Assembly: GCF_001483135.1 (NCBI RefSeq) | Contig: NZ_LNAL01000008.1 | Span: forward strand, 496,001-560,000 | DNA from: Solirubrum puertoriconensis | Lineage (GTDB): Bacteria; Bacteroidota; Bacteroidia; Cytophagales; Hymenobacteraceae | Direction of reading: 5' to 3' | Length of the DNA stretch: 64,000 bases | In this document: in pieces, positions 33,941 through 42,461 of the stretch | How the letters are laid out: every line of letters starts with the position of its first letter | How positions within the stretch are numbered: position 1 is the first letter of the stretch | Made by a program: the position numbers and the translations under genes | Notes under the pieces: generated by a model | The model's database searches: none | What the model saw: the letters and a program-made list of their open reading frames with translations, nothing else | What the model was told of the DNA's origin: nothing

Positions 33941-33974
33941 AATGGAAACTTTGGGTTCACTAAAAGTTTCCATT
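33941..33974. promoter_or_regulatory. Perfect palindromic operator of the TetR efflux regulator
   Basis: AATGGAAACTTT (33941-33952) and AAAGTTTCCATT (33963-33974) form a perfect 12-bp inverted repeat with a 10-bp spacer. It overlaps the -33 TTTG (33950-33953) and ends one base before the -7 element. This is the expected place for a TetR-type repressor to block its own promoter. Confidence 0.75.
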
Positions 33975-33983
33975 GTACCTTTG
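33950..33983 (+). promoter_or_regulatory. Promoter of the efflux operon (-33 TTTG, -7 TACCTTTG)
   Basis: TTTG (33950-33953) and TACCTTTG (33976-33983) are separated by 22 bp, close to the Bacteroidota consensus. The -7 element ends 4 bp before the GTG start of tetR, so the mRNA is probably leaderless. Confidence 0.75.
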
Positions 33984-33987
33984 TGCT

Positions 33988-34623
33988 GTGAGTACGGAAA
34001 TAAAGGATCGGATTCTGCAGGTGGCGGTTGAGCTGTTCATGCGCAACGGCATCCGCAGTGTTTCAATGGATGACATTGCCGCGCAACTAGGCATGTCGAA
34101 GAAGACGCTCTACAAGTGGTTCGATAACAAAGACCAGATCGTGCTGGCTACCATGCAGCAGCACCTGGTGCGCGAGGAGTCGGACTGCGAGTTGGTATTT
34201 GCCACCGGCAGCAACGCACTCGAGGAGATGTTTAACCTAATGCAGTGGCACAAGCAGATGCTGTCGACGGTGCATCCGAGCATTTTCCATGAGCTGCAGA
34301 AGTATTACCCCGAAGCTTGGGCGCTGTTCGAGCAGCACAAAAACACCTTCATTCTAACCAAGATTGCCGACAACCTACGGCGCGGTATCGAAGAGGGCCT
34401 GTTTCGGGCCGATCTCGACGTTGAAATAATAGCTCGCTTACGCTTGGCCGAAATAGAGCTGATGTTCGACGGCCGCGTGTTTCCGCCCCGCCAGTTTGAG
34501 CTGCAGCGCCTGCACCTGGCCACCGTCGAGCACTACCTCTACGGCATCTGTACCGTCAAGGGGCACCGTCTCATCAACCAGTACCGGCAGGTAACGGAAG
34601 AAGTCGAAGAAGAAATTAAGTAA
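33988..34623 (+). CDS. TetR/AcrR-family transcriptional regulator
   Basis: This 211-residue repressor heads the efflux operon. I choose the GTG at 33988, which begins MSTEIKDRILQVAVELFM; the upstream ATG at 33973 would lie inside the promoter. The N-terminal helix-turn-helix is clear (NGIRSVSMDDIAAQLGMSKKTLYKWF, shown here in part as SMDDIAAQLGMSKKTLYKWF). The C-terminal ligand domain is helical with no recognised subfamily motif. It is followed 33 bp later by the TolC gene, so it probably controls its own operon through the palindrome upstream. Confidence 0.93.
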   Translation: MSTEIKDRILQVAVELFMRNGIRSVSMDDIAAQLGMSKKTLYKWFDNKDQIVLATMQQHLVREESDCELVFATGSNALEEMFNLMQWHKQMLSTVHPSIFHELQKYYPEAWALFEQHKNTFILTKIADNLRRGIEEGLFRADLDVEIIARLRLAEIELMFDGRVFPPRQFELQRLHLATVEHYLYGICTVKGHRLINQYRQVTEEVEEEIK

Positions 34624-34656: not shown

Positions 34657-36201
34657 ATGAAAAAAGCGTTTCGCCTGCTGCTGCTTGTGGCTGCACCGGG
34701 CTTTCTGGGGCTGCACACGCTTTCGGCGCAAACCCCCTCTACGGGGCAGCCGGTGGCTACCAGCACCCCCATGGCTTTAAGCTTGCAGCAGGCCATCAAC
34801 TATGCGTTGCAGAACAAGTCTACGCTCCAGGCTACTCGCATCAACGAGAAGGTGGCGCAGGCGCGTGTAGGTGAAATCCGAGCAACGGGTTTGCCGCAAG
34901 TCAACGCCTCGGCCACGGTTACCGATAACTACAAGCTGCAACGCTCGCTCGTCGATTTTGGCGCGTTTGGTGGCCCGCAGCTCGAGGGAGCTACCCTTAC
35001 CCAGGCCGATATCAACGCAGCCCAGTCGGGCCAGCAGGTAACGCTGCAGCCGGCCTACCGCGAGGCTGTGCCCATGCCGCCGCAGCCGCTGGCTTTTGGT
35101 TTGCAATGGCAAGGTAACGGTTCGGTACAAGCTTCGCAGATGCTCTTCAACGGTTCGTACCTCCTAGGTCTTAAGGCTGCTAAGGTGTACGAGGCCCTGT
35201 CGGTGAAGCAAACCCAGCAGAGCGAAATCGAAGTGATGGAGCAGGTATCGAAAGCCTACTACAGCACCTTGGTTGCCCGCGAGCGGCTGCAGCTGTTGGC
35301 CCGCAACGTGCAGCGCCTCGATACGCTACTGTACCAAACCAAGCAAACCTTCGAGGAGGGTTTCGTGGAAAAGCTCGACGTTGACCGCCTGCAGGTGCAG
35401 GTAAACAACCTAAAGATTGAGCAGCAGAATGCCCAGCGCCTCGTTGACCTGAGCGTGGCCCTGCTGAAGTTTCAGATGGGTCTCGATCAGCGCCAGCCCG
35501 TGGAGCTGACCGATAACCTCGACGGTGCCGTGGTGGATGCCGAAACCGAGCGCCAGCGCCTCAACGCGGGCCTCAGCACCGACTTCAACTACAGCAACCG
35601 CATCGAGTATTCGGTGCTCGAAACCCAGCGCGATTTGGCCGTGCTAGATGTGCGCAACCGCCGCTCGGGTTACCTGCCTACGCTCAACGCCGTGGCCTCG
35701 TACGGTTTCATTGGTTCCGACCGCACCCTAGGTGGCCTGATGGAGTTCCGCGGGCCGAACTCGCGCGCCGAATCTGGTTTCCTGAATCAAAACTGGTTTG
35801 GCTTCGGCAACATCGGCCTGCAGCTGCAAATCCCCATCTTCGACGGCTTCCGCAAAAAGTACAGCATCGAGCAGGGCAAGCTGGCCCTGGAGCAGGTAAA
35901 CAAAGGGTTTACCACGCTGCAGCAAAGCATCGATCTGCAACGCGCCCAAACGCAAACCACGCTGCAGAACACGCTCGACGTGCTGGCCAACCAAAAGGCC
36001 AACCTCGACTTAGCCACCAATGTGGCCCGCGTTGCCAAAATCAAATTCCAGGAAGGCGTGGGCTCGAACCTGGAGGTGATTACGGCCGAAACCGATTTGC
36101 GCCAGGCGCAAACCAACTACTACGCAGCGCTATACGATGTGCTGGTAGCCAAAGTCGATTACAACAAAGCGTCGGGTTCGCTCTCGACGCCGGGCAAATA
36201 G
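34657..36201 (+). CDS. TolC-family outer-membrane efflux channel
   Basis: This 514-residue outer-membrane factor forms the exit duct of the RND pump. It has a signal peptide (MKKAFRLLLLVAAPGFLGLH to LSAQ). The duplicated OEP domains begin with LSLQQAINYALQNKSTLQA and include SYGFIGSDRTLGG and the coiled-coil helices (QQSIDLQRAQTQTTLQNTLD). The C-terminus has FQEGVGSNLEVITAETDLRQ, the family's final hairpin. Length fits TolC-type proteins. It is read together with tetR, the adaptor and the pump. Confidence 0.92.
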   Translation: MKKAFRLLLLVAAPGFLGLHTLSAQTPSTGQPVATSTPMALSLQQAINYALQNKSTLQATRINEKVAQARVGEIRATGLPQVNASATVTDNYKLQRSLVDFGAFGGPQLEGATLTQADINAAQSGQQVTLQPAYREAVPMPPQPLAFGLQWQGNGSVQASQMLFNGSYLLGLKAAKVYEALSVKQTQQSEIEVMEQVSKAYYSTLVARERLQLLARNVQRLDTLLYQTKQTFEEGFVEKLDVDRLQVQVNNLKIEQQNAQRLVDLSVALLKFQMGLDQRQPVELTDNLDGAVVDAETERQRLNAGLSTDFNYSNRIEYSVLETQRDLAVLDVRNRRSGYLPTLNAVASYGFIGSDRTLGGLMEFRGPNSRAESGFLNQNWFGFGNIGLQLQIPIFDGFRKKYSIEQGKLALEQVNKGFTTLQQSIDLQRAQTQTTLQNTLDVLANQKANLDLATNVARVAKIKFQEGVGSNLEVITAETDLRQAQTNYYAALYDVLVAKVDYNKASGSLSTPGK

Positions 36202-36312
36202 GCGGTTAGCGCCTGATACCTCATGCAAACGCTCCTCGCGAACACTTCAACCATGAAACGTTCTTTCCAGCAGGCTTTCGCTAACCGCACGCTGTTCTTT
36301 GCTACTCGTACT

Positions 36313-37455
36313 ATGAAATCCACTACTTCGGCCGCTGTATTAGCATTAGCTTTCTTGGCTGCCTGCGGCGGCGAGAAAGACCCGCAAGCCGAGCTGGCCA
36401 AGCTTAAGCAAGAGCAGGCCGCTACCGAGGCCAAAATTGCCGAGCTTGAAACCAAAGCTGGTAAAGGTGCCGCCGACGCAGGTGCGTCCGTAGCAGCTAC
36501 GCCGGTGTCGGTCATCAACGTGCAGCCCGAAAGCTTCACCAGCTACCTCGAGGTGCAAGGCCGCGCCGATTTCGACGAAAACGCCAACGTATCGCCGCGT
36601 GTGCCCGGTGTTATCACCAGCATCCGCGTGCAGCGCGGCGACCGGGTAAGCCGCGGCCAAGTAATTGCCACGCAGGATGCCGCCGTGCTCGAGTCGGGCA
36701 TTGCCGAGCTGCGCACCCGCCTCGACCTGGCCCGCACCGTGTATGAAAAGCAAAGCCGCCTCTGGAAACAGCAAATCGGCACCGAGATTCAGTACCTGCA
36801 AGCCAAGAACAACTACGAGGCGCTGCAGCGCAGCTTGGCTACCCAGCAGCAGCAGCGCGCCATGTACAACGTGATTGCGCCCTTTAGCGGTACCGTGGAT
36901 GAGGTGCCGGCCAAGATAGGCGAAATGGGCAACCCCGGCATGCCGGTGGTGCGCCTCATCAGCGGCGCCGGCAACAAAATCGTGGCCGACGTTTCGGAAA
37001 ACTACGCCGCCAACATCAAGGCCGGCGACAAGGCCCTGGTGAGCATCCCCGACCTAGGCGCCGAGAACATTCCGTCGACGGTACGCACCGTAAGCCGCAC
37101 CATCAACCCGGCTAGCCGCACCTTCGCCGTAGAGCTCCGCCTCAACGGCTCGCAAGCGCAGCAGCTGCGCCCCAACATGGTAGCTACTGTGCGCATTCAG
37201 AACTACAACAAGCCCCAGACCACGGTACTGCCGGTTGATTTGGTGCAGAAAGACGAAGAGAACAGCTACGTGTTTGTTGTTGAAGACAAAGGCGGTAAAA
37301 AGGTTGCTGCCAAGCGTGTGGTGCAAACCGGCGCTACCTACAACGGCAGAACGGAAATCACCAGCGGCTTGAAGGCCAACGACCAGGTGATTTCGGCTGG
37401 TTACCAGAACCTCAACGAGGGCCAGACTGTGGCTCTTGCCGGCACAGCCGGGTAA
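36313..37455 (+). CDS. RND efflux periplasmic adaptor (membrane-fusion lipoprotein)
   Basis: This is a 380-residue HlyD/AcrA-type adaptor. Of three in-frame ATGs (36223, 36253, 36313), I choose the last because it gives a lipoprotein signal peptide with lipobox LAAC ([18 protein letters not shown]). A short coiled coil follows ([19 protein letters not shown]). The barrel-sandwich halves are [18 protein letters not shown] and [21 protein letters not shown] beta-barrel and membrane-proximal domain complete it. It should be anchored to the inner membrane and bridge the pump to TolC. A 100-bp spacer with two CCTAGG copies precedes the pump gene. Confidence 0.92.
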
Positions 37456-37555: not shown

Positions 37556-40500
37556 ATGCAGGATATAGAAAAAGAGTTTGGACCCACCAGTTGGTCCATC
37601 AATAACAAGACGAGTATTTACATCATCACGCTGCTGCTCTGCATAGCGGGTGTGTTTGCCTACATCAAGCTGGGCAAGGAGAAGTTTCCGGATATCGTGA
37701 TTCCGCGCATTATCGTGGCCACGGTCTACCCGGGTACTTCGCCAACCGATATCGAGAACTTGGTAACACGCCAGCTCGAAAAGGAAATTAAGTCGGTGAA
37801 CGGGGTGAAGAAGATCAACTCCACCTCGAACCAAGACTACTGCATCGTGGACGTGGAGTTTAACTCCGGCGTCGACGTGCAGTACGCCAAGCAGCTCATC
37901 AAGGACGCCGTCGACAAGGCCGGTAACGAGCTACCCAACGACTTGCCCACCCCCCCCACGGTACAGGAGGTAAACCTTTCGGAGCTGCCCATTATGCAGA
38001 TCAACCTGGCCGGCAACTTGCCCGCCAGCCAGTTGAAGAAGCTCGCCGACGATTTCCAGGACCGCATTGAGGCGCTGCCCGAAATTACCCGGGTCGATAT
38101 TATTGGTGCGCTCGAGCAGCAGGTAAACGTTGACGTAGACCTGTACAAGCTTCGCGCTGCCCGCCTGAGCTTTGCCGACATTCAGGGCGCTATTGCCCGC
38201 GAAAACATCACCATTTCGGGTGGTTCGATCGACGTAGGCGCCCAGAAGCGCGCCGTACGCGTGGCCGGCCAGTACGTGAATGCCGCCGACATCGCCGACA
38301 TTCAGGTGAAGAACATGAACGGCTCGGCTGTGCGCCTCGGCGACATTGCCACCGTGCAGGATGCCTTCAAAGACCGGGAGTCCTATGCCCGCCTCGACGG
38401 CAAGCCTTCTATTACCCTGAACGTGATCAAGCGCCAGGGGGAAAACCTGATTGATGCTTCCGACAAGATTAAGCAGATTGTGGAAGAGGCCGAGCAAACG
38501 CTGCCCGGCGACTTGCGCGTAACCATCACGGGCGACACCTCCAACGACACTCGCGTAACGCTGCACGACCTGATCAACACGATCATCATCGGCTTCATCC
38601 TGGTAACGGTGATTCTGATGTTCTTCATGGGTACCACCAACGCCATGTTCGTAGGCCTATCGGTACCCATTTCGATGTTCTTGGCCTTCCTGGTGCTGCC
38701 GATGTTCGGCTTCGCCTTGAACATGATTGTGCTCTTCGCCTTCTTGTTGGCGCTGGGTATTGTGGTCGACGATGCCATTGTGGTTATCGAAAACACCCAC
38801 CGTCTGTTGCACGAGCACCCGCACCTGACCACGGCGCAAGCAGCCAAGTTTGCCGCCGGCGAGGTATTCGTACCGGTGTTAGCTGGCACGCTCACCACGG
38901 TGGCGCCGTTCGTGCCGTTGATGTTCTGGCCGGGTATTGTAGGTAGTTTCATGTTCTACCTCCCCGTGACGCTGATCCTGACGCTGATGTCGTCGTTGAT
39001 TGTGGCCTTCATCATGAACCCGGTGTTTGCCGTGTCGTTCATGGAGCGCGAAGACCACCACGCCGAGCACAGCAAGCCCAAAGTGACGCGTAACTTACTG
39101 ATCTGGACGGCTGCACTGGTGGGCCTAGGTGTGCTGTTCAACCTGGTGGGTATCGGTGGCCACACCGAAGCTAGTGCTGAAGGCGCTGCGGCAGTAGCTA
39201 AGGGGGCTGAGTCGCCTGGCTTCTTCAAAGAGCACGGTCACTTCATGGGCAACCTGTCGCTGTTTATTGCAGCCTTCATCTGGCTGAACATGTTCGTGTT
39301 CAATAAGGGCATTGCTTGGTTCCAGACACGGGCGTTGCCGCGCTTCCAGAACGGCTATGCTAACCTGGTGCGGTGGGCCATTAACCACCCAGCCCTGGTA
39401 ATGATTGGCGTGGTGCTTCTGTTCATCGGCTCGTTTGTGGCCGTGGGCATCCGCAGCCCCAAAGTTGACTTCTTCCCGAAAGGTGACCCCAAATTCGTGT
39501 ACACCTATCTGAAAATGCCGGTGGGTACCCGCGTAGAGGTTACCGACTCGGTCGCTCGCATTCTGGAGAAGCGTATTTACGGCGTAATTGGGCAGAGCAA
39601 CCCCGACGTAGAATCGGTAATTACCAACGTTGCCATTGGTGCCGGCGACCCCGGCGAAGCCACGGCTTCGGGTGTGTCGCAGTCGCACTTGGCCAAGGTG
39701 GCTGTAGCCTTTAAGGAGTTGAGTGAGCGTACGGGCCCAAGCACCCGCACCTACATGGACAAAATTCGCGAGGTGGTTAAAGGTATTCCCGGTACCGAGA
39801 TTTCGGTTGACCAAGAATCGAGCGGCCCGCCCACGGGTAAGGAAATTGCCATTGAGGTAGCCGGCGACGACTACCCGAAACTGGCGGCGCTGTCGAAGGA
39901 TGTTATTCGCTACATCAACTCGAAAAACATCGGCGGCATCGAGCAGCTGCGCTCGAACCTAGAAGACCGTAACCCCGAAATTGCCGTGAACATCGACCGC
40001 GTGCGTGCCAACCGCGAAGGCATCAGCACGGCGCAAATCGGTGTGGAAGTGCGTACGGCCATTTACGGTTCGGAGGCCAGTAAATTCAAAACCCCCGACG
40101 ACGAGTATCCCATTCAGGTACGCTACGCCAAGCCCTACCGCGAAGACGTTAACGCCGTCCTGAATTCGCCGCTAACGTTCCGCGACGCCACCGGCCAGAT
40201 GCGTCAAGTGCCGATTTCGTCGGTTGCTGACGTGAAATACGGCACCACCTACGGCGGCATCAAGCGCAAAGACGTGAAGCGTGTTATCACCATCTCCTCG
40301 AACGTGCTGAGCGGCTTCACTGGTCCCGATGTAGTGCGCAACATCGAGCAGGCCCTAAAGGCCTACCCGACGCCTGCCGGCTACACCATTAAAATGGGTG
40401 GTGCCCAAGAAGACCAGAAGGAAACCTCCGACTTCTTGCCCATCGCCGGCCTAGGTGCTCTGGCCTTGATCTTCCTGATCCTGGTAATGCAGTTTAACTC

Positions 40501-41071
40501 GTTCAGCAAGCCGGTTATCATCCTATCCGAAGTGCTGTTCTCCATTGCCGGCGTATTCTGGGGCTTGGCCATCACGGGCATGAACATCAGCATCGTGATG
40601 ACGGGCGTAGGCATCATCGCGCTGGCAGGTATCGTGGTGAAAAACGGCATTCTGCTAGTGGAGTTCACCGACATCTTGCGCAGCCAAGGCATGCCGATGC
40701 GCGAAGCCATTGTACTGGCCGGCCGCACGCGTTTGAACCCGGTAATCCTGACGGCCACGGCTGCTACGCTGGGCCTGATTCCGCTGGCTATCGGCCTGAA
40801 CGTGGACTTCTACGAGATGTTCGCTGCCTTCGACCCCATGTTCTACATCGGTGGTGAATCGGTGGTGTTCTGGGGGCCGCTGGCCTGGACGATCATCTTC
40901 GGTCTGGTTTTCGCTACGGTAATTACGCTGGTAGTAGTACCGGTTATGTACCTGCTTAGCGAAACGCTGAAGGGCAAAGTGACGGGCAAAGACCCCGATG
41001 CTAACGTGCCGCAGGAAGTAGACGAAGAAGAGATTTCGGCTGCCCGCCCGCCGATTTTGGCCGAGTACTAA
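37556..41071 (+). CDS. RND efflux pump permease with extra loop between TM6 and TM7
   Basis: This 1171-residue inner-membrane pump of the HAE/AcrB type has 12 core helices. The proton-relay aspartates are in LGIVVDDAIVVIENTHR (TM4). The second-half helices include NGILLVEFTDILRSQGM. The N-terminus is unusual for AcrB, opening MQDIEKEFGPTSWSINNK. Between TM6 and TM7 (about residues 497-590) is an extra segment of roughly 90 residues. It starts with a His-rich stretch (EREDHHAEHSK) and holds two additional hydrophobic segments. Standard pumps are about 1040 residues. The substrate cannot be inferred. It closes the operon. Confidence 0.93.
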   Translation: MQDIEKEFGPTSWSINNKTSIYIITLLLCIAGVFAYIKLGKEKFPDIVIPRIIVATVYPGTSPTDIENLVTRQLEKEIKSVNGVKKINSTSNQDYCIVDVEFNSGVDVQYAKQLIKDAVDKAGNELPNDLPTPPTVQEVNLSELPIMQINLAGNLPASQLKKLADDFQDRIEALPEITRVDIIGALEQQVNVDVDLYKLRAARLSFADIQGAIARENITISGGSIDVGAQKRAVRVAGQYVNAADIADIQVKNMNGSAVRLGDIATVQDAFKDRESYARLDGKPSITLNVIKRQGENLIDASDKIKQIVEEAEQTLPGDLRVTITGDTSNDTRVTLHDLINTIIIGFILVTVILMFFMGTTNAMFVGLSVPISMFLAFLVLPMFGFALNMIVLFAFLLALGIVVDDAIVVIENTHRLLHEHPHLTTAQAAKFAAGEVFVPVLAGTLTTVAPFVPLMFWPGIVGSFMFYLPVTLILTLMSSLIVAFIMNPVFAVSFMEREDHHAEHSKPKVTRNLLIWTAALVGLGVLFNLVGIGGHTEASAEGAAAVAKGAESPGFFKEHGHFMGNLSLFIAAFIWLNMFVFNKGIAWFQTRALPRFQNGYANLVRWAINHPALVMIGVVLLFIGSFVAVGIRSPKVDFFPKGDPKFVYTYLKMPVGTRVEVTDSVARILEKRIYGVIGQSNPDVESVITNVAIGAGDPGEATASGVSQSHLAKVAVAFKELSERTGPSTRTYMDKIREVVKGIPGTEISVDQESSGPPTGKEIAIEVAGDDYPKLAALSKDVIRYINSKNIGGIEQLRSNLEDRNPEIAVNIDRVRANREGISTAQIGVEVRTAIYGSEASKFKTPDDEYPIQVRYAKPYREDVNAVLNSPLTFRDATGQMRQVPISSVADVKYGTTYGGIKRKDVKRVITISSNVLSGFTGPDVVRNIEQALKAYPTPAGYTIKMGGAQEDQKETSDFLPIAGLGALALIFLILVMQFNSFSKPVIILSEVLFSIAGVFWGLAITGMNISIVMTGVGIIALAGIVVKNGILLVEFTDILRSQGMPMREAIVLAGRTRLNPVILTATAATLGLIPLAIGLNVDFYEMFAAFDPMFYIGGESVVFWGPLAWTIIFGLVFATVITLVVVPVMYLLSETLKGKVTGKDPDANVPQEVDEEEISAARPPILAEY

Positions 41072-41137: not shown

Positions 41138-41192
41138 GGCCAAAGCGGGCAATCTTCCTTACCTCTTTCCGTTCTAATTGTCGTTTCACGCC

Positions 41193-41465
41193 ATGTTAAC
41201 CCGAACGACTACCGCCGCCCCTGCCAGCATCGAACAACAAGTGCTGCGCATCATTAGCAAGCGGAAGGCTATCAAGCCTAGCCGCCTGCGTGTATCAAGC
41301 AACCTCAGCCGCGAACTAGGCTTCGATACGGTTGATGTGGTTGATATCATTCTCGAGCTCGAACGCCGCTTCCACATCACCATCCCCGACGAGGTGCCGC
41401 TGAACACCGTGCGCGATTTTGTGCGCTACGTGGCCGCACACCTAGGGGGCTCTAAGGCTCAGTAG
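41193..41465 (+). CDS. Acyl-carrier-protein-like protein with Thr in place of the phosphopantetheine Ser
   Basis: This 90-residue protein has the four-helix carrier-protein fold. The ATG at 41193 is preferred to an upstream TTG. The helix II region reads ELGFDTVDVVDIILELERRFHITIPDE, close to the ACP consensus LGxDSLDxVELxxxLEExF. The serine that accepts 4'-phosphopantetheine is replaced by Thr46. The rest, including the acidic helix and IPDE loop, is conserved. A basic N-terminus (RTTT, SKRK) is unusual for an ACP, which are normally acidic. It probably cannot carry acyl groups in the standard way. It stands alone, with a terminator downstream. Confidence 0.75.
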   Translation: MLTRTTTAAPASIEQQVLRIISKRKAIKPSRLRVSSNLSRELGFDTVDVVDIILELERRFHITIPDEVPLNTVRDFVRYVAAHLGGSKAQ

Positions 41466-41492
41466 TCGGTGTAAGCACCTAGGGCTTTACGC

Positions 41493-41533
41493 AAAAGGCC
41501 CGCATACCTCAGGCTGAGGTATGCGGGCCTTTT
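41493..41533. terminator. Intrinsic terminator after the carrier-protein-like gene
   Basis: An 18-bp stem (41493-41510 and 41516-41533) is preceded by AAAA and followed by a TTTTTT tract. It serves the carrier-like gene and perhaps the convergent DUF1232 gene. Confidence 0.92.
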
Positions 41534-41551
41534 TTATTTATAACAGCTATG

Positions 41552-42337
41552 CTAGCGTACGTTGCCGCCGGTATCGCCGCCGCGCATGCCGCCGCTTTTG
41601 GGGTCGCGGCTGCCGGCCGTGCTGGCGCCCTCCACGTTAGGGTTGGGTTTGATGTCCAGGTCGGGTTGGTGGGTGTCGGCTACGCTACCTTCAGGGTGGG
41701 CGTCGCTTACTTGGTTGGCCGGGTCGGGCTGCGAGCCGCCGGGCAAATCGGCACGGCCGGCACGCTTCGCCGATTCGGAGTTTTCGACAAACGGGCCGCT
41801 GGTTACGCTATGCTCGGCTTTCTCGAGGTTTTGAGCGGCAGCCGCCGTGCCCGACAAGGGCTGGTTGGTGGCACCCTTTTCGGCGCCTAGGTTGCTAGTG
41901 CCAGCAGCTAAGGGCTGGGCGCGCGTACGCTCCCAATCTTCAAACTTGTCCATTTCGTTTTTCAGAGTGCTAGTAAACCACGCCAACAAGGCTACATCAT
42001 CAAGCAAACCGACAACAGGAATGAAGTCGGGCACGAGGTCAATGGGGCTCATAAAGTAGATCAGCACCGCAATTGCGCCAAGTACGGTAGGCGTAGGCAC
42101 CCCGCGGTACTCGCCCGAAGCAGCCGAGCGAACCAACCGGAAAAGCGTTTGCAGGCTGTCCCAAGCTTCTTGGGCGAGGTGGCCCAGTTCTTTTTTCTCG
42201 CTGGCTTTGTGGTAAGCATCGGCGAGCAACTGTTTAATGCGCAGGGGCTGCCGGAGGTAACTTTCGGCTTTGCTTAAGAAACCTTTGAAAATTGGCGACG
42301 AGGCAACTTGCTCGCCGTTGGGTTGATTGGTAGCCAT
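41552..42337 (-). CDS. DUF1232 (YkvA-like) protein
   Basis: This 261-residue protein starts at the ATG at 42337 (MATNQPNGEQVASSPIF). The DUF1232 signature is clear near residue 95: AIAVLIYFMSPIDLVPDFIP followed by VVGLLDDVALL. That segment is one hydrophobic hairpin, so the protein is likely membrane-associated. The last 110 residues are polar, low-complexity and rich in Gly, Asn, Pro and Ser, and probably disordered. YkvA-type proteins have no well-established biochemical role. Confidence 0.85.
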   Translation of the reverse strand: MATNQPNGEQVASSPIFKGFLSKAESYLRQPLRIKQLLADAYHKASEKKELGHLAQEAWDSLQTLFRLVRSAASGEYRGVPTPTVLGAIAVLIYFMSPIDLVPDFIPVVGLLDDVALLAWFTSTLKNEMDKFEDWERTRAQPLAAGTSNLGAEKGATNQPLSGTAAAAQNLEKAEHSVTSGPFVENSESAKRAGRADLPGGSQPDPANQVSDAHPEGSVADTHQPDLDIKPNPNVEGASTAGSRDPKSGGMRGGDTGGNVR

Positions 42338-42461
42338 ACAGCTAGGCAGGTGAAGAGAGAATATTGGCTCAGCAACACTAGTAGTACGAGTGCTGGTTGC
42401 CGTTCTAATACTATTACGGGGCAAAATAGTTATTAGGTGGCACTAGTGGCCGCAAACAAAA

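Follow-up and report, generated by a model that had tools for sequence, protein, structure and literature searches.

A serine-less acyl carrier protein homologue recurrently linked to RND efflux operons in the Hymenobacteraceae

The locus and its ACP-like protein

The window (the whole stretch of DNA that was analysed, 64,000 nucleotides) contains an open reading frame at 41193–41465 on the + strand which encodes a 90-amino acid homologue of acyl carrier proteins (ACPs); its translation includes ELGFDTVDVVDIILELERRFHITIPDEVP. A preliminary description of this DNA had stated that the serine of the ACP DSL motif is replaced by threonine, and translation of the reading frame confirmed the replacement: Thr46 (ACG at 41328–41330) occupies the position of the phosphopantetheine serine. 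We call this serine-less ACP-like protein ACPL. Its gene is the last of an operon, and the features of the locus are as follows.

33973–34623, + strand: TetR-family regulator, the operon's first gene (PF00440, 2.6e-14), syntenic in relatives
34657–36201, + strand: TolC-type outer-membrane efflux protein (PF02321, 7.3e-43), syntenic in relatives
36223–37455, + strand: periplasmic adaptor (MFP) of the RND pump (TIGR01730, 190.3 bits against a cut-off of 94.9; HlyD_D23, 4.7e-23)
37556–41071, + strand: RND efflux permease RND1, 1171 amino acids (PF00873, 6.3e-193), with orthologues in the order
41193–41465, + strand: ACPL, the operon's last gene (PF00550, 33.2 bits; AF2 pLDDT 78.6; Foldseek matches are ACPs)
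41328–41330, + strand: Thr46 codon ACG, the phosphopantetheine attachment position (Thr in 101 of 102 first-copy loci)
41493–41533, + strand: intrinsic terminator directly 3' of ACPL, a 19-pair stem with a T tail (−36.9 kcal/mol for 41472–41545, z −6.2)

The permease, adaptor and TolC genes of this tripartite RND system lie in one unit which is syntenic in relatives. The gap between the RND permease and ACPL is 121 bp, no + strand terminator-like site falls within it among the sites listed, and we infer that ACPL is co-transcribed with the TetR, TolC, MFP and RND genes. In the order search, the best full-length orthologues of RND1 outside the family were 43–57% identical. At about residues 510–587, RND1 (37556–41071) carries two extra hydrophobic segments in the TM6–TM7 linker, a trait of its RND subfamily; RND1 orthologues without ACPL are about equally long, so these segments are probably not tied to ACPL. 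Beyond the terminator, and convergent with the operon, lies a DUF1232/YkvA-like gene with a long low-complexity tail (41552–42424, − strand), which keeps its syntenic place beside ACPL in the majority of first-copy loci examined over 20 kb.

We adopted ATG 41193 as the ACPL start because homologues agree with it; an alternative TTG at 41178 would give a protein of 95 amino acids. ACPL scores 33.2 bits with the Pfam profile PF00550 (cut-off 20.8), and all 17 NCBIfam ACP models listed score it below their own cut-offs (TIGR00517, for example, at 46 versus 70.45 bits). The AF2 model (pLDDT 78.6, pTM 0.64) predicts the helical-bundle fold of ACPs, with three long helices assigned and the short third ACP helix not resolved. 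When this model was searched with Foldseek, all 50 matches listed were ACPs or ACP-containing entries (TM 0.67–0.91 by target length), and they included the MmpL5-AcpM entries 8zkp, 9rfu and 9mvz and chains of the EmbC2-AcpM2 entry 7bve.

Elsewhere in the window genome, a single other match to ACPL was found at E 1e-3 or better. It is an ordinary DSL ACP (L002, on contig G000:C3), 30% identical to ACPL, and this true ACP of the genome scores 5.8e-9 in the ACPL search. The first 40 residues of ACPL have a net charge of +8 and the full protein +4, whereas eight true ACPs range from −8 to −15. The preliminary description had called the N-terminus basic and unlike that of an ACP, which is correct for the window protein. 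It does not extend to the relatives, which are only less acidic: 62 serine-less relatives average −1.3. Strong basicity is therefore a trait of the window protein, and loss of acidity a trait of the group.

Fixation of threonine and linkage to RND1

A close relative of ACPL (E < 1e-20) is present in all 204 Hymenobacteraceae genomes searched. Threonine occupies the site in every one of 80 named loci, the best 80 of 140 stretches encoding a relative, which are mostly from Hymenobacter with Rufibacter and Sabulibacter in addition. With more distant genera included, there are 102 first-copy loci (some being the same genome entered twice), and 101 have threonine and one, L078, has valine. Fixation in the clade had been proposed as a check on the preliminary description, and these counts bear it out. 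The site codons of the 102 loci are ACC (62), ACG (29), ACA (5), ACT (5) and GTA (1). Thus, threonine codons have turned over synonymously without any serine appearing, even though a single base change separates the two residues, which indicates selection.

Pairwise comparison of ACPL with eight near relatives gave dN of 0.006–0.035 at dS of 0.41–0.99, and comparison with a ninth (L110) gave dN 0.12 and dS 1.40. The gene is under strong purifying selection and decay is ruled out; the earlier judgement that the threonine is not a random change in a decayed gene is upheld by dN values far below dS and by the relatives in all family genomes. Paralogues of ACPL likewise lack the serine and have Ile, Leu, Val, Asn, Gln, Pro or Ala at the site, a variety that fits the earlier suggestion of a regulatory or structural derivative. 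With the phosphopantetheine serine lost, the usual carriage of acyl chains would be impossible for ACPL. On a tree of 71 rows, the difference between serine and non-serine proteins amounts to one change, and the identity of the site residue overall to twelve. Basal support is weak and several long branches meet there, so the tree allows a single loss of serine rather than proving it.

The preliminary description had also advised a search for partner genes, and the adjacent RND efflux pump is such a partner. An RND1 orthologue lies directly upstream of ACPL, on the same strand, in 77 of the 80 named loci, with 22–255 bp from the RND stop codon to the start of the ACPL match. The three exceptions (L161, L166 and L169) are all Rufibacter and have ACPL without the RND1 operon; there, ACPL is in place, intact and constrained, and the YkvA-like and NlpC genes still follow beyond it; a match to the permease at L166, 33% identical, proved spurious. 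Among 16 genomes of this genus, RND1 was found in 13, and three had no RND1 match at 1e-100. A further locus, L095, is a second copy of the entire RND1 operon.

Further tests lent a pump-specific association no specific support. In a mirror-tree analysis of the 74 loci with all six genes, the correlation of ACPL with RND was not above that of ACPL with the flank; the rank correlation of ACPL distances was 0.86 with the flanking NlpC gene, which is not part of the operon, and 0.81 with RND. Comparing 92 RND sequences of the family (from 100 loci) with 17 relatives without ACPL (from 20), after length and identity filters, yielded 21 family-specific positions, which are scattered along the protein and cannot be separated from the effect of shared ancestry. 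One residue follows TM4, where histidine (H419) is present in 92 of 93 RNDs, as against Asp, Glu or Asn in 16 of 17 outside, and as a residue linked to ACPL it is only suggestive. No C-terminal tail motif common to RND1 and a second permease, RND2 (below), was found; RND1 tails are conserved within lineages.

Further pumps, paralogues and families

Fifty genomes of another genus in the family were searched, and second copies of ACPL there lie just 3' of a different RND permease, RND2, in 30 of 30 cases. This set consists of the 30 best-scoring copies, and the identity of RND2 was confirmed with the RND2 protein in all 30. RND2 and RND1 are 27–31% identical over two main stretches. The site residue in these 30 RND2-linked copies is Ile in 26, Leu in two, Asn in one and Val in one, and a complete RND2 operon, in L093, has the order TolC-MFP-RND2-ACPL. 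In genomes of the Rufibacter genus, those second copies that follow RND2-like pumps (L084, L087, L091 and L096) keep threonine. A third operon, with the order TetR-MFP-RND-TolC-ACPL, is found at L089, where an ACPL with Ala at the site begins 67 bp 3' of the TolC gene. Finally, a fourth RND operon, from Hymenobacter (TolC-MFP-RND, L103:4149-10249), ends in an ACP which keeps serine (LGLDSIELVELV) and is possibly a picture of the ancestral state. The threonine substitution in the window protein is one instance of a wider pattern, in which serine-less ACP-like proteins are repeatedly linked to RND operons. The linkage has exceptions: no RND gene was found near five paralogues, within 20 kb each at L085, L086, L088 and L098 and within 3 kb at L286 (L284 and L285 duplicate L085 and L086).

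In the loci examined outside the family, the pumps mostly stand without ACPL. RND1 orthologues are common in the order, being found at 1e-150 in 103 of 148 genomes, 11 of the 103 belonging to the family. In none of 20 outside loci did ACPL lie 3' of RND1, and the most sensitive search of these loci gave two matches at chance level (E 0.35 and 0.94). Among 30 outside loci with RND2 orthologues, two have ACPL behind the permease, divergent and serine-less with Ile at the site, at distances of 107 bp (L302) and 217 bp (L297). A third match, at L312, lies upstream of RND2 and has serine. Since ACPL stands behind 0 of 20 RND1 genes and 2 of 30 RND2 genes outside the family, it looks like a later addition to pumps that already existed. 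In one other family, 3 of 11 genomes have a divergent ACP-like gene with Ile at the site, and in all three it lies beside an RND2 orthologue, so that a second family shows the linkage too. Four of the remaining matches in that family were examined, and all were DSL proteins. The divergent Ile-site proteins behind RND permeases at L297, L302 and L318–L320 have an extended N-terminus.

In broader searches, the matches examined from outside the family were DSL proteins. Within the order, 47 of 291 sampled genomes had a match at 1e-12, of which 45 belong to the family and two (L099 and L100) are DSL proteins; class-wide, the 30 best loci comprised four from the family and 26 others, all 26 being ordinary DSL ACPs. 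The possibility weighed in the preliminary description, that serine is the rule among homologues and the threonine a single variant, was not borne out. These order and class similarity searches missed the other family's divergent proteins, found only downstream of RND2, and their negative results are bounded to that extent.

A candidate pump-dedicated ACP and its alternatives

ACPs are reported to associate with a transporter of the RND superfamily in mycobacteria, where MmpL5 binds AcpM on its cytoplasmic side (PMC11633376, PMC12346298). AcpM, the ACP of meromycolate extension, carries phosphopantetheine on Ser41, and this arm is described as sandwiched between two MmpL5 protomers, with a suggested part in keeping the trimer stable (PMC12501195). 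The two systems (8zkp, 9rfu and 9mvz for the mycobacterial one) have in common an ACP fold, predicted in the case of ACPL, and a transporter of the RND superfamily, to which ACPL is linked by gene position. They differ in several respects. ACPL is without the serine, so that an AcpM-type phosphopantetheine bridge between protomers is impossible; its gene sits in the pump operon, with a separate ordinary ACP in the genome; and its pump is a TolC-MFP-RND (ACR_tran) system.

The reported contacts of AcpM with MmpL5 are T20, D40, V45, E46, Q50, E52, D53, Y55 and D61 (PMC11633376). We left out T20 and mapped the other eight, with numbering checked on the solved chains, to D45, V50, D51, E55, E57, R58, F60 and D66 of ACPL. 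Six of these, the equivalents of AcpM D40, V45, E46, E52, Y55 and D61, are strongly conserved among 62 serine-less proteins, by identity or close replacement (D45, V50, D51, E57, F60 and D66). Position 55 varies, and at position 58 the residue is mostly basic, whereas its counterpart in AcpM is an Asp that makes contact. The contact positions are conserved relative to all positions (132 of 20,000 random draws were as low), though not clearly more so than the rest of helix II and its loop (3,084 of 20,000 draws), a region in which true ACPs are conserved too.

Other reports bear on whether an ACP can act without its arm. In Escherichia coli, apo- and holo-AcpP are reported to stimulate the MukB ATPase similarly, and SpoT, IscS and SecA are named as further AcpP partners (PMC8602292). 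The S36T substitution in E. coli ACP is reported to abolish IscS binding (PMC13343975), so the serine or the arm matters for some moonlighting partners. ACPs can thus, by these reports, act without the arm (MukB), though not on every partner (IscS). On this footing we propose that ACPL is a dedicated pseudo-ACP of RND pumps, which would dock on the cytosolic face as AcpM does on MmpL5 while lacking the phosphopantetheine arm, a proposal by analogy which we consider about evenly balanced between true and false. In its favour, besides the mycobacterial precedent, are the ACP sequence and predicted fold, the nearly invariant site under purifying selection, RND1 directly 5' of ACPL in 77 of 80 named loci, serine-less paralogues behind RND2, behind the L089 pump and behind the RND2 orthologue of a second family, the scarcity of ACPL beside the outside pumps, and a terminator that follows ACPL with none listed ahead of it. 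An ACP fold would have lost its phosphopantetheine serine and then been kept as an accessory protein dedicated to RND efflux pumps. By analogy with AcpM, the face formed by helix II and the IPDE loop (Asp45, Val50, Asp51, Glu57, Phe60 and Asp66) would most likely dock on the permease from the cytosolic side, where ACPL may stabilise the RND trimer or modulate pumping. Having no serine, it would be released both from the traffic of acyl carriers and from an AcpM-type phosphopantetheine bridge. The three Rufibacter genomes that keep ACPL without the pump, the five paralogues for which no RND was found, the lack of excess co-divergence with RND, contact positions no more conserved than their surroundings, the basic residue at position 58, the absence of a tail motif shared by RND1 and RND2, and the reported effect of S36T on IscS binding all argue against this reading.

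The main rival to a pump subunit is a soluble regulator encoded by the operon. ACPL would then be a cytosolic, non-modifiable ACP mimic that is made when efflux is induced, makes no contact with RND, and binds or competes for the partners of ACP (fatty-acid enzymes, or SpoT-, IscS- or SMC-like proteins). The operon position accounts for co-expression as well as contact does, apo-AcpP is reported to stimulate MukB as holo-AcpP does and AcpP to bind SpoT, IscS and SecA (PMC8602292), and the gene is still present in three Rufibacter where the RND1 operon is missing and at five paralogue places without a detected RND. However, such a regulator must have come to lie with several unlike RND operons (RND1, RND2 and the L089 pump). 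The net charge of ACPL is moreover so far from that of true ACPs that a general ACP mimic is less likely, and we consider this explanation unlikely, while giving it real weight.

ACPL might also be a mere passenger, a conserved gene for an ACP-like protein whose function has nothing to do with the pump and which stands beside it by chance in a syntenic block. That block, with its convergent YkvA-like and NlpC genes, is indeed syntenic in many relatives, ACPL distances track the flanking gene as well as they track RND, and the three Rufibacter retain ACPL without the operon. Chance does not readily explain why paralogues in other neighbourhoods again lie directly after an RND gene or operon (30 of 30 in one genus, L089, and 3 of 3 in another family), and we regard a passenger as distinctly improbable. 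More doubtful still is a working carrier, in which a relaxed transferase phosphopantetheinylates Thr46. Threonine does offer a hydroxyl, and almost every first copy has this residue (101 of 102 loci); one RND-linked relative, L103, has serine. But homologues that occupy the same place in the operon have Ile, Leu, Val, Asn or Ala at the site, without a hydroxyl for the usual phosphodiester link, and the acidic character is lost. A decaying or spurious gene, for which the loss of the defining residue might speak, can be dismissed in view of a close relative in each of the 204 family genomes, dN far below dS, and fixed residues amid synonymous turnover.

Taken with these alternatives, ACPL is probably not a carrier but an accessory component of the pump or a regulator of it. 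We tentatively suggest, at slightly less than an even chance, that proteins of this kind form a class of accessory subunits of RND efflux pumps in Cytophagales that has so far gone undescribed, which abandoned carrier chemistry and became joined to three or more distinct RND operons (another, at L103, still has serine), as a prosthetic-group-free counterpart of AcpM-MmpL5. Among the open-licence PMC papers listed in literature searches, no title or opening of an abstract dealt with an ACP without serine that is linked to an RND pump. For AcpM on MmpL5 in the recent structures, it can be argued that an abundant ACP merely sticks to the pump. If the pump-dedicated reading is true, a serine-less ACP that selection retains in the pump operons of unrelated bacteria would show that the ACP fold can serve as a dedicated pump part with no prosthetic group. 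The role of ACPs on RND transporters would then become genetically testable, because the ACPL gene can be deleted without touching the fatty-acid ACP of the cell.

As a putative small extra subunit of an RND pump, ACPL has a parallel in AcrZ, which differs in being a single membrane helix of unrelated sequence and fold. ACPs are also subunits of larger complexes, as the titles of Foldseek entries indicate for AcpM2 in EmbC2 (7bve), the ACP of complex I and that of Nfs1-ISD11; unlike ACPL, these are serine ACPs with other partners. With the ACP of type II fatty acid synthesis (TIGR00517, PF00550), ACPL shares the predicted fold, the layout of DSL helix and IPDE loop and, for the ACP of its own genome, 30% identity; it differs in the missing attachment serine, a score below the NCBIfam cut-off, the basic N-terminus and the gene context. 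Four genomes of the window's genus (L019–L022) encode ACPs that contain the serine and end in a hydrophobic tail rich in Trp, for example AAAWWNLSLGFFG.
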